From NCBI RefSeq assembly GCF_042242105.1, contig NC_092020.1, positions 13,147,288 to 13,211,287 of the forward strand: a stretch of 64,000 nt of DNA, written 5' to 3'. Made by a program: the position numbers and the translations under genes. The notes below the pieces were generated by a model, which worked only from the letters and a program-made list of their open reading frames with translations, did not search any database and had not been told where the DNA came from. Each line of letters starts with the position of its first letter. The stretch's first letter is position 1. The stretch is from Pempheris klunzingeri (Eukaryota; Chordata; Actinopteri; Acropomatiformes; Pempheridae). Of this stretch, positions 39,297 to 55,512 are shown one piece after another.

Positions 39297-41654
39297 ATGG
39301 AACAAAGAGGATACGGGAGACGAACGGCGCGAGGACATTTGTTCGGCTGCGTGTTTGCGGTGTTTCTGTGGAGCGTGGCCTCGGCGCAGATAAGATATTC
39401 AATCTCGGAGGAGGTTAACGAAGGAACTGTGGTTGGAAACATAGCAAAAGATCTGGGACTGGATAAAAGCACACTGAGTGACAGGAAGTATCGGGTTGTT
39501 TCTAGTAACGCGGATCCGCTTTTCCATGTGAATCAAAACGATGGTATCCTGTATGTGAGCAGGAAGATTGACAGAGAAGAGGTGTGCCCGCAGAGCAGTA
39601 CGTGTTTGATACATCTGAAAACCGTGCTGGAAAACCCGCTGGAGGTTCATTATGTTGAGGTAGAGGTGCTGGATATAAATGATCATGCACCCAGTTTCCC
39701 AGAAAATGAGAAAAGGTTGGAAATTTCTGAGTCTGTTTTGCCTGGAGCACGATTTCAGCTAAAACCTGCACGGGATCCAGACAGCGGTACCTTCTCCGTA
39801 CAGCGATATAAACTCAGTCAGAACGATCACTTCCGATTGGAAGTCAGGGATAAAGGGGAAGATGGTAAAATACCAATACTGGTTTTGCAAAAATCTTTGG
39901 ATAGGGAGGCAGCGGAAAGTAACTCATTAGTGCTGACAGCTCTGGATGGAGGTAAACCTCCGAAAACTGGCGAGATGAATATTATAGTAAAAGTTTTGGA
40001 TGTTAATGATAACACACCTGTTTTCACTGAGGATGTTTACTCCGTTACACTCTCTGAAAATGCTCCAGTAGGCACCACTGTCGTACAGGTGAATGCTACT
40101 GATTTGGATGAAGATCAGAATGGAGAGGTTTATTACTCATTTGGTAACAGTGTAAGTAATAAGTTATTTAAGCTTTTTGATATAAATCCATCAACAGGTG
40201 AGATAACTGTTAAAAGTCTTATAGACTACGAGCAAAAGGACAAGTATGAAATTGAAATTGAAGCATCAGATAAAGGTCTTGCTCCTCTTACAAGAGAAAA
40301 AAGTGTCATTATTAAGATAGTTGATGTGAATGATAATGCTCCAGACATTGAAGTTACGTCATTTTCAAACTTCATCCCTGAAGATTCCAGACCAGGAACC
40401 ACAGTTGCTCTAATCAGTGTGAATGACTTGGACTCTGGTCTCAATGGAAAAGTTATTTGTTCTCTAAGTGAAGATGTTCCGTTTACTTTATCACCATCCT
40501 TAAAAGACAAAATGTATTCATTAGTCACTAAATCTCCTCTGGACAGAGAGAAACAGTCACATTATGAGCTGACAATAACTGCTAAAGACGCTGGTCAACC
40601 TCCATTATCATCTGAAAAGACAATAAGTGTTGTGGTGTCAGATGTGAATGACAACAGTCCAGAGTTTTCACTGAGTCCCTATACTTTCTATGTCACAGAG
40701 GGAAACAATCCAGGAGCCTCTGTGTTTTCTGTTAAAGCTTTTGATCGTGATGAGAGCGACAATGCTCTTATTTCCTATCATATTCTCAGAGATGGAAGCC
40801 AAGAGAATAAATTGACTTCATTTCTCAACATAAACAGTGAAAACGGAGACATTTTGGCCCTAAAAAGTTTTGACTTTGAGACCCTGAAAACGTTCCAGTT
40901 CCAAGTTGTTGCCTCAGATTCTGGAACTCCGTCGCTGAGCAGCAACGTCACAGTGAACGTGTTCATTCTGGATCAGAACGACAACGCTCCAGTCATCCTA
41001 TATCCAGTCAGCTCCAACGGTTCTGCTGAAGGTGTGGAGGAGATTCCCCGCAATGTGAACGCAGGACACTTGGTGACTAAAGTCAGAGCCTATGACGCTG
41101 ATATAGGATATAACGGCTGGTTACTGTTTTCACTGCAGGAAGTTACTGACCACAGTCTCTTTGCTTTGGACCGCTATACAGGACAGATCAGAACACTTCG
41201 CTCGTTCACAGAGACAGACGAGGCTGAGCATAAACTGCTCATACTGGTCAAAGACAACGGGAACGTTTCACTGTCAGCAACAGCTACTGTCATTGTCAAA
41301 CTGGTGGAGCCCAAAGAGGCTTTTGCAGCTTCTGACGTTAAAAGTGCAGCAAAAGATGACGAGGAGAATAATGTGACTTTTTACCTGATGATAACTTTGG
41401 GCTCAGTTTCTGTACTTTTTCTCATCAGCATCATCGTGCTGATTGCAATGCAGTGCTCCAAAACCACAGACTATACTTCTAAATATCTCCAGGAGACTAA
41501 CTATGACGGGACACTGTGTCACAGCATCCAGTACAGATCTGGAGACAAACGGTACATGTTAGTGGGACCCAGGATGAGTATAGGATCTACTATAGTCCCT
41601 GGCAGCAATGCCAATACACTAGTGCTCCCTGACAGGAGGAGAGCTTCTGGAGAG
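39297..41654 (+). CDS. pcdha: Protocadherin alpha variable exon V13
   Basis: A complete exon of 786 codons, start [13 protein letters not shown] (in-frame ATG at 39279 as in V12). EC1 is the common V5 type. EC2 is the [20 protein letters not shown] version also in V10. EC3 is distinctive: [41 protein letters not shown]. Marker variants in its 3' part (TTGACTTCAT at 40812, CCTATATCC near 40998, CCCTGGCAGCAATGCC near 41597) recur only in V15, which identifies V13 as the 3' parent of that chimera. The tail ends RRRASGE; a family B spacer follows. Confidence 0.95.
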
Positions 41655-42297
41655 GTAAGACATTTCGAATCAAGATTCTTTTTTACCCCATGAATTTGAT
41701 AGTGTGTCTGCTGTCCTTTAAATAAAACATTTTCTTTTGTATCTAATTAACCTGGACAAGAATGATATAACCACTGAAAGAGTATTTTACATCTTAATTC
41801 TAGAAATTGCTTCGATTAGCAAGTAGTTTGAAAAGCCCAATCGATACACTCACTTTTCTTGAAAATCACTTGATTATGCTTCATGATCTGTTAATGTGCA
41901 TCATCTCTTGGACCACTGATGAAGGCCTGTAGATGTTGTTTTTTGTTACAACATTAAGTAATTTATTTGATTAATTGACCTTCTTTCTCTACTGCTTCTT
42001 GATATTGACATCATTACAAAGCTGATGTATCTGACAATAGATCTAATATTGCTTTTTCATAATTTGATGAGGTGAATCATGCAACAAGCATTCGAGACCT
42101 TAGTGATTTTATATGGATGAGTATGCAGCATTAGCACATCTTTAGTACCCACATCATATCAACCATAGACAACACGTAATTAAATGCTTCCAGAAACAAG
42201 CAGGAGCTGTGTGGCGGCTTGAGAAAAAGCCTAACAAATAAATTTGAAAGGGAAAGATAACACCATCACCAAATGTAGTTGGACTAAGTTAGTGGTG

Positions 42298-42318
42298 ACC
42301 CCTGTCCATGGTGCTGAA
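42298..42318 (-). promoter_or_regulatory. REST/NRSF site (RE1) upstream of V14
   Basis: Same as the V12 site (family B spacer), 310 bases before the promoter element. Confidence 0.8.
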
Positions 42319-52896: not shown

Positions 52897-52916
52897 TCGC
52901 ATGGTGTCAGTGTGTT
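52897..52916 (+). promoter_or_regulatory. CTCF-like promoter element (CSE) of V17
   Basis: Copy of the V15 element at +6,929 bases; 258 bases before the ATG. Confidence 0.87.
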
Positions 52917-53154
52917 GGGAAAATAAGGCTGTTGGCTTGTCGTCACTGTATTTTGGTTCCACCTCTTTGTAGCTCTCTCAGTTCGATACTAGCAGAATCG
53001 CCTGGCGGCTTGCTGCTGCCTTTGTGAAAAATGATCCGCGTTTGTATCTTTTTTGAAGCAGAGTGATCATTTCCATAACCGGATGTGTTGGATTAATTTC
53101 TTATAACACTGTTATTAATGACGTGAGGATTCACCAATAGTTTTGTTTTTAAAC

Positions 53155-55512
53155 ATGGAAAAAAGAGGATGCGAGGAAAGAGGGGCGAGAGGACGGTGGA
53201 TCGGCTGCATGCTTGCTGTGCTTTTGTGGAGCGTAGCCTCGGCGCAGATAAGGTACTCTGTCTCAGAGGAAGTTAACGACGGGACTGTGGTCGGGAATAT
53301 AGCAAAGGATTTGGGACTGGATAAGAGCACGTTGAAAGACAGGAAGTATCGGATCGTTTCTAGTGCTAAGGAACCTCTTTTCCGTGTAGATCAGAATGAC
53401 GGCATCCTGTATGTGAGCCGGAAGATCGACAGAGAGGAAGTATGCGAGCGAAGCAGTACCTGTTTGATAAATCTGAAAACCGTGCTAGAAAACCCTCTGG
53501 AGGTTCATTATGTTGGAGTGGAAGTGCTGGATATAAATGATCATGCTCCCACTTTCCCGGAGGAAGAGAAAATGTTAGAGATATCAGAATCAGTGTTACC
53601 GGGAGCACGTATTCCCTTAGAAGCCGCACGAGACCCAGACGGTGGTCCTTTCTCCATTCAGCAGTATAAACTCAGCCCCAATGACCACTTCCGTTTGGAA
53701 GTTAAAGATATGGGAGAAGATGGTAAAATACCAGTATTAATTGTGCAGAAATCACTGGATAGGGAGGCAGCTGAAAGTCACTCATTAGTGCTGACAGCTC
53801 TGGATGGAGGGAAACCTCCGAAATCGGGCGAGATGAATATTATAGTTAATGTTTTGGATGTTAATGATAATGCTCCTGTTTTCAGTAAAAATGTTTATTC
53901 TGTGATGCTGGATGAAAATGCTCCAGTTGGTACAACAGTCATTCAAGTGAATGCAAGTGATTTAGATGAAGGCCCAAATGGAGAAGTAGTTTACTCATTC
54001 AGCAACAGTGTAAATCGTAAATTCTTAAAGCTTTTTGAAATAAACCCATCAACAGGGGAGATAACTGTGAAAAGTTTAATAGACTATGAAGAGAAGGACA
54101 AATATGAGATTGAAGTTGAAGCATCAGATAAAGGTCTGGCTCCACTGGCTACACAGAAAAGCATCATTATTAAGATAGTTGACGTGAATGATAATGCTCC
54201 AGAGATTGAAGTTACCTCATTTTCAAACTTCATCCCTGAAGATTCCAGACCAGGAACCACAGTTGCTCTAATCAGTGTGAATGACTTGGACTCTGGTCTC
54301 AATGGAAAAGTTATTTGTGCTTTAAATGAGGGTGCGCACTTTGCTTTATCACCATCCTTACAAGACAAAATGTATTCATTAGTCACTAAATCTCCTCTGG
54401 ACAGAGAGAAACAGTCACATTATGAGCTGACAATAACTGCTAAAGACGCTGGTCAACCTCCATTATCATCTGAAAAGACAATAAGTGTTGTGGTGTCAGA
54501 TGTGAATGACAACAGTCCAGAGTTTTCACTGAGTCCCTATACTTTCTATGTCACAGAGGGAAACAATCCAGGAGCCTCTGTGTTTTCTGTTAAAGCTTTT
54601 GATCGTGATGAGAGCGACAATGCTCTTATTTCCTATCATATTCTCAGAGATGGAAGCCAAGAGAATAAACTGACTTCATTTCTCAACATAAACAGTGAAA
54701 ACGGAGACATTTTGGCCCTAAAAAGTTTTGACTTTGAGACTCTGAAAACGTTCCAGTTCCAAGTTGTTGCCTCAGATTCTGGAACTCCGTCGCTGAGCAG
54801 CAACGTCACAGTGAACGTGTTCATTCTGGATCAGAACGACAACGCTCCAGTCATCCTGTATCCATCCAGCTCCAACGGTTCTGCTGAAGGTGTGGAGGAG
54901 ATTCCCCGCAATGTGAACGCAGGACATTTGGTGACTAAAGTCAGAGCCTATGACGCTGATATAGGATATAACGGCTGGTTACTGTTTTCACTGCAGGAAG
55001 TTACTGACCACAGTCTCTTTGCTTTGGACCGCTATACAGGACAGATCAGAACACTTCGCTCGTTCACAGAGACAGACGAGGCTGAGCATAAACTGCTCAT
55101 ACTGGTCAAAGACAACGGGAACGTTTCACTGTCAGCAACAGCTACTGTCATTGTCAAACTGGTGGAGCCCAAAGAGGCTTTTGCAGCTTCTGACGTAAAA
55201 AGTGCAGCAAAAGATGACGAGGAGAATAATGTGACTTTTTACCTGATGATAACTTTGGGCTCAGTTTCTGTACTTTTTCTCATCAGCATCATCGTGCTGA
55301 TTGCAATGCAGTGCTCCAAAACCACAGACTATACTTCTAAATATCTCCAGGAGACTAACTATGACGGGACACTGTGTCACAGCATCCAGTACAGATCTGG
55401 AGACAAACGGTACATGTTAGTGGGACCCAGGATGAGTATAGGATCTACTATAGTCCCGGGCAGCAACGCCAATACACTAGTGCTCCCTGACAGGAGGAGA
55501 GCTTCTGCAGAG
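53155..55512 (+). CDS. pcdha: Protocadherin alpha variable exon V17 (5' parent of chimeric V15)
   Basis: A complete exon of 786 codons, start [13 protein letters not shown], identical in translation to V15 through EC5. It differs in EC6, where it reads [10 protein letters not shown] instead of [10 protein letters not shown], a two-base change found in no other copy, and its tail ends RRRASAE instead of RRRASGE. It also carries GACGTAAAAAGT in the block, a variant shared with V2 and V3. The downstream spacer is unique, so V17 most likely keeps the original arrangement from before the 6,929-base duplication. Confidence 0.95.

Follow-up and report, generated by a model that had tools for sequence, protein, structure and literature searches.

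Within a 64,000-nucleotide stretch of the Pempheris klunzingeri genome (the window; placed by genome search at positions 13147288-13211287 of the 28.1-Mb contig NC_092020.1, here C9), an array of protocadherin variable exons has probably undergone a real and very recent tandem duplication with its junction inside exon V15. This chimeric exon most likely arose by unequal crossover in an ancestor with the exon order V13–V14–V17. The window holds 19 such exons in single open frames, the first one cut by the window start; their numbering (V1-V19) is that of an earlier model-made reading of the same letters (the sequence-only reading), several claims of which are taken up below. The wider locus was read over 200 kb (C9 13100001-13300000), and the genome searches covered the 646-Mb assembly with its 439 contigs. 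Positions refer to the window unless prefixed with C9, and features lie on the + strand unless stated otherwise.

An exact repeat and a single switch point

Positions 40504-47740 (3′ half of V13, V14 and 5′ half of V15) and 47433-54669 (3′ half of V15, V16 and 5′ half of V17) are identical over 7,237 bases at an offset of 6,929, with zero mismatches and zero gaps, and the interval and spacing of the sequence-only reading proved exact to the base. The tandem unit measures 6,929 bases, and the 308-base overlap of the two copies sits in the middle of V15. The 200 kb contain no other exact repeat on a scale of several kilobases; the next in length, in the window as well as in the 200 kb, has 1,498 bases, and a chance origin of the long repeat was ruled out on this comparison. 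The 6,929-base spacing between corresponding landmarks, cited earlier as a further sign of duplication, holds too, but it is not separate evidence because nearly all of the landmarks lie inside the exact match.

The exons concerned are V13 (39279-41693, open frame of 804 amino acids, donor GAG/GT after 41654), V14 (42858-45302, 814 amino acids, donor after 45233), V15 (46226-48622, 798 amino acids, donor after 48583), V16 (49787-52231, an exact copy of V14, donor after 52162) and V17 (53155-55569, 804 amino acids, donor after 55512). A donor of the form GAG/GTAAG or GAG/GTGAG follows each of the 19 exons, splicing being predicted from sequence. Between the exons, the type B spacers V13–V14 (41655-42857) and V15–V16 (48584-49786) show 0 mismatches in 1,196 bases, and the type D spacers V14–V15 (45234-46225) and V16–V17 (52163-53154) 0 mismatches in 985, against 2 to 34 in the other spacer pairs of the locus that are alike at both ends.

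We aligned V13, V15 and V17 with 800-base flanks and counted gap columns. Before 47433, 210 open-frame and 441 flank columns group V15 with V17 and set V13 apart; from 47433 to 47740 all three agree at 308 of 308 columns; after 47740, 41 open-frame and 523 flank columns group V15 with V13 and set V17 apart, the flank counts being inflated by the alignment of unrelated spacers and not independent evidence. The number of contrary columns along V15 in this alignment is zero. The last V17-type site is 47432 and the first V13-type site 47741, and the switch from V17-type to V13-type sequence lies within the block between them unless it was altered later. The assignment of V15 to V17 up to 47740 and to V13 from 47741 was thus confirmed, with the switch point in 47433-47740. 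A scatter of V13- and V17-type sites, which would favour conversion, was looked for along V15 and not found; in the absence of any contrary column, V15 as a mosaic produced by repeated conversion was ruled out.

Ten of the 41 open-frame columns 3′ of the block lie before the donor at 48583 and 31 in the read-through past it. Nine of these ten lie in 47741-48571, and V15 carries the V13 base at all nine. The base at 47929 is found among the 19 window exons only in V13 and V15, so that the V13-only markers claimed for V15 come down to this one position; 47936, 47937 and 47998 are private to V17 and uninformative on the donor of the 3′ half of V15; the remaining five sites each involve at least one base that also occurs in further exons. 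The claim that V15 is followed by a V13-type spacer is borne out: although informative exon columns are few, this spacer is of V13 type throughout.

The block itself occurs at 40504-40811 in V13, at 47433-47740 in V15 and at 54362-54669 in V17; the three are identical, and this is the longest exact match that V13 and V17 share, which makes their blocks the candidate partners of the exchange. In the history that we favour, two chromatids carrying the ancestral order V13–V14–V17 would have mispaired with a shift of two exons; by homologous recombination within the 308-base block (end of EC4/start of EC5), the 3′ part of V13 would then have become attached to the 5′ part of V17. The product would be V13–V14–V15–V16–V17, with V15 as the V17/V13 chimera and V16 as the copy of V14. 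A single crossover in this block had been proposed as the simplest history, and every informative column fits it. The hallmarks of duplication by such an exchange are present, namely head-to-tail copies, a junction in an in-register homologous block, one switch and no mosaic. We infer crossover rather than another homology-based route, and the arrangement is presumably present in the animal and its exons expressed.

Competing explanations and age

Several points weigh against a recent duplication by crossover. Only one of the ten informative exon columns between block and donor is V13-only. The basis is one assembly sequence of one genome, from which an assembly loop would yield the same sequence; polishing can erase true differences between copies, and zero differences over 7.2 kb fit an artefact too. 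Later conversion between the copies could also mask an older date.

The strongest rival is an assembly artefact: the genome may read V13–V14–V17, with the loop from the 3′ half of V13 through V14 to the 5′ half of V17 walked twice by the assembler via the 308-base block, or with two haplotypes joined in tandem. We consider such an artefact unlikely, while giving it more weight than the other rivals. It would account for a junction in sequence that both partners share exactly, a requirement for a graph loop, and for copies without any difference, and false duplications are documented in vertebrate assemblies in the part of PMC9516828 consulted. The same text names gaps between the copies among the main signs of false duplication, whereas here no N lies between the copies, nor anywhere in the 200 kb read. 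Exact blocks of at least 308 bases are offered by 252 of the 364 exon pairs within the three subclusters of the locus, yet none of the others has led to an exact repeat beyond the 1,498 bases mentioned above. A haplotype join should leave heterozygous differences unless the animal was inbred, and there are none in the 7,237 bases. A near-identical copy of V15 on another contig was not found among the best candidates scored, which gave 33 matches; the only one outside C9, where the other 32 lie, is on C14 and 67 bases long. A further genome search listed 14 matches, all on C9, but carries little weight, as the query's own place was missing among them.

It is quite improbable that gene conversion between the copies kept an older tandem duplication identical and overwrote part of V15. 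This idea draws on the 3′ halves, which are 98-99% alike across the window exons as they are in fugu, where the available text of PMC1852091 puts this down to gene conversion. It is at odds with the identity of the non-coding spacers, with identity in one unbroken tract, with a V15 free of mosaic sites, and with the divergence of the other duplicated spacers of the locus. Even less credit goes to a real duplication by another homology-based route, such as break-induced replication, single-strand annealing after re-replication (the topic of PMC3536649, going by the portion consulted), or a circle cut out and reinserted at the same block. Each of these could presumably give the same in-register junction and would be indistinguishable by sequence, but all involve extra steps that nothing in the sequence requires. 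Unequal crossover thus remains the explanation that we prefer.

The upper 95% limit on the divergence of the two copies is about 3/7,237 (0.04%). For comparison, an older copy of spacer B between V11 and V12 (34282-35480; 99.0% identical to V13–V14) differs from the V13–V14 spacer, which is of the same type, by 9 mismatches in 1,196 bases (0.75%). If nothing erased differences, the event would be at most about 1/18 as old as the duplication that separated V11–V12 from V13–V14, with conversion between the copies or assembly polishing as processes that could have done so. Short tandem repeats were of no use as a clock: a pattern search of the repeated unit gave no microsatellite and one 9-base A run, and scanning 39000-56000 for tandem repeats yielded 9 small arrays. 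Judging from the spacers, the locus has undergone a series of duplications of which V15 appears to be the most recent; such a series goes beyond what the sequence-only reading claimed.

Homogenised 3′ halves, encoded proteins and promoters

The 200 kb contain three subclusters of variable exons with 7, 20 and 18 members, which we arbitrarily label a, V and g, the last without reference to gamma. Farther downstream on C9, in the same orientation, lie matches to Cadherin_tail (PF15974) at 13306160, 13315648 and 13598608, the first two being candidate constant exons shared by the array; C14 carries another two. By its layout the locus resembles the teleost Pcdh2-alpha cluster, with the window looking like part of the second of three subclusters; an attempt to assign the subcluster from its homogenisation boundary was dropped, residue numbers being of no help in telling the candidates apart.

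Over the final 780 bases before the common end, the window exons show 98-99% likeness, rising to 100% for V13/V15 and V14/V16. Among seven exons of the subfamily (V11, V16 and V17 were dropped as near copies), the mean synonymous difference is 0.41 in EC2, 0.39 in EC3, 0.04 in EC4, 0.03 in EC5 and 0.01 in EC6. GC content at third codon positions (GC3) in 18 exons (V2-V19) is 38.4% in the first 1,200 bases and 51.3% in the last 813. The 308-base block is highly alike in the V5/V9-V17 subfamily, and the sequence directly 3′ of it is 98-99% alike in all 19 window exons. This agrees with the earlier proposal that a substrate of gene conversion served as the recombination site as far as likeness goes; that gene conversion made the junction block alike is our interpretation of it.

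As far as the fugu locus is described in the accessible text of PMC1852091, the parallels are close. FrPcdh2-alpha 2-7, 8-25 and 26-36 form three subclusters of tandem single-exon variable regions, as here, and in both species the 5′ part is divergent, the 3′ part nearly identical and GC3 higher in the latter (38.4 to 54.4% for fugu alpha 9-25; 38.4 to 51.3% here). The homogenisation boundary lies at 508 (alpha 8-25) or 488 (alpha 26-36) in fugu, in an alignment without signal peptide, and at about residue 511 of V15 here, counted with the signal. That text mentions tandem duplication and attributes the 3′ homogenisation to gene conversion; the words "unequal", "crossing", "crossover" and "recombination" were not found in the portion consulted. 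Tandem duplication and 3′ homogenisation in these clusters are already in print, according to the parts of PMC4151104 and PMC1852091 used here, and the present event is of a known kind, unusually cleanly preserved.

In V13, V15 and V17, Pfam matches above cut-off comprise Cadherin (6 stretches), Cadherin_2 and Cadherin_C_2, and a candidate transmembrane stretch was read by eye from the translations, so that a single exon would carry cadherin repeats, a membrane-spanning segment and a short cytoplasmic part, as in clustered protocadherins of Pcdh-alpha type. The best match of V14 in the PDB is Protocadherin-10, followed by gamma-B4 and alpha-7. The junction block corresponds to residues 403-505, from the end of EC4 to the middle of EC5 as judged by the DxNDN motifs. 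V14 and V16, described earlier as identical in translation, are so over 788 amino acids. V15 and V17 differ over the 782 amino acids up to the end of LVLPDRRR at residue 571 only (V in V15, S in V17, the latter because of the V17-private bases); a second difference before the donor is residue 785 (G in V15, A in V17).

Clustered protocadherins give nerve cells identity labels, and recognition is carried by EC1 to EC4. Since these four domains are identical in V15 and V17, the event adds copies but hardly specificity; to judge from the translations, copy number would rise and recognition diversity hardly change. Homogenisation of the 3′ halves keeps the chimera in frame, as the sequence-only reading had it, with its open frame and donor intact, and makes it nearly equal to V17; as a protein change it is small, being V17 with two residues different up to the donor. 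A new recognition type was considered and thought unlikely, both of these residues lying outside EC1-EC4.

V14 and V16 have N for D at residue 568, within a DQNDN motif that the other 17 window exons keep. Five bases in the last 813 are confined to these two among the 20 exons of the subcluster, and all five are changes from G to A or from C to T relative to the commonest base. The duplicated exon may, on this pattern, be a weakened one.

REST-type sites lie on the − strand upstream of V14 (42298-42318) and V16 (49227-49247), each with 2 mismatches to the REST consensus. The REST sites that the sequence-only reading gave for V15 and V17 did not hold up, the best candidates upstream of these exons (45588-45608 and 52517-52537) having 6 mismatches. 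Sites with at most 3 mismatches to the same consensus occur in 12 of the 18 window spacers; among the 18 scanned, V3–V4, V5–V6, V7–V8 and V18–V19 likewise have no good one.

By analogy, each copy with its own promoter would likely join the stochastic choice of promoters, so that more cells would use the V14 and V17 labels and no clearly new label would appear. In an engineered mouse duplication, as reported in the part of PMC4151104 consulted, copies sharing the same promoters showed stochastic expression, which was lower for the 5′ copies. That allele, Pcdh-alpha dup(2-c2), resembles the present case in having tandem copies of alpha-cluster variable exons with identical promoters; it differs in being engineered and 218 kb long, whereas here the repeat is natural, 6.9 kb long and joined within an exon. 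The same text cites a 16.7-kb deletion of human PCDHA8-A10 and other PCDH copy-number variants, which are population copy-number changes among alpha variable exons, although the PCDHA8-A10 variant is a deletion and not a duplication. If real, the repeat would be a freshly formed, naturally occurring duplication within a neuronal identity cluster, its promoters being identical and its proteins nearly so, and a clean case for how stochastic promoter choice treats duplicate labels and for whether 3′ homogenisation lets an array change copy number without breaking exons. If an artefact, it would be a useful warning on the assembly of such arrays.

Older duplications and a possible cassette unit

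Among the 42 spacers within the three subclusters, further groups are alike at both ends. The type A spacers V4–V5 (11031-12194), V9–V10 (27189-28351) and V10–V11 (30735-31898) differ pairwise by 2, 12 and 12 mismatches in 1,163-1,164 bases (V10–V11 against V4–V5: 2 in 1,164; against V9–V10: 12 in 1,163). V11–V12, V13–V14 and V15–V16 differ by 9, 9 and 0 mismatches in 1,196, and V14–V15 and V16–V17 form the identical pair described above. In the other subclusters, a5–a6 and a6–a7 show 34 mismatches in 1,088 bases plus 239 gap columns, and g3–g4, g5–g6 and g10–g11 show 12 to 24 mismatches in 927-1,023 bases plus 97 to 450 gap columns. V12–V13 bears a weak likeness to V13–V14 and V15–V16 that is confined to the vicinity of the promoter, with 73% over the final 300 bases.

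Where duplicates resemble each other at both ends, the likeness (threshold 93% in 100-base windows) extends into the exons on either side. On the right-hand side it persists to where the scan stops, within the homogenised 3′ part, with no end visible, for V4–V5 with V10–V11 and for V11–V12 with V13–V14. It ends about 365 to 450 bases into the exon for V9–V10 with V4–V5 and V10–V11 and for the g pairs, and at about 135 bases for a5–a6 with a6–a7. The tandem geometry of V15 recurs at V10 and a6, which are of older date and have altered since their formation.

The segments 8666-14603 and 28352-34289 are nearly identical, from the 3′ part of V4 through the spacer to V5 in one and from the 3′ part of V10 through the spacer to V11 in the other, with an exact run of 1,498 bases; V5 and V11 differ at 4 of 788 residues. 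The two lie 19.7 kb apart with mostly unlike spacers between them, so that not all copies are simple tandems. The pair looks like a recent non-tandem copy of a whole cassette; either a duplication with a later deletion or copying of the complete cassette could have produced it.

V5, V10 and V11 (12195-12560, 28352-28720 and 31899-32264) are almost exactly the same in promoter, signal peptide and the greater part of EC1, until V10 departs abruptly at about +365. The exons g4, g6 and g11 (C9:13236541, 13243478 and 13260135) behave in the same way, with departure at about +400 to +450. It looks likely that a second recombination boundary lies near EC1/EC2.

Tentatively, and with rather more doubt than confidence, we suggest that the homogenised 3′ halves may act as standing recombination joints, and that the unit which multiplies and moves may be not the exon but a cassette consisting of the 3′ half of one exon, the spacer with its promoter and the 5′ half of the next exon. 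An exchange at such a joint would leave an intact in-frame exon with its own 5′ recognition part and promoter, and V15 would be the newest of several events, some of them not tandem. If true, changes in the number of copies and in the order of cassettes would cost the locus little in coding terms. We regard this as a more interesting lead than the duplication itself.

A strict rule that breakpoints always lie in exons was ruled out by g7–g8 and g8–g9, which are alike over roughly the first 300 spacer bases only; as they part after that point, one break lies in a spacer. In this region (C9:13246709-13252487), g7 and g8 share their 3′ flank and part within the spacer. The open frame of g8 is longer at its 5′ end (862 amino acids), which may just reflect an upstream ATG.

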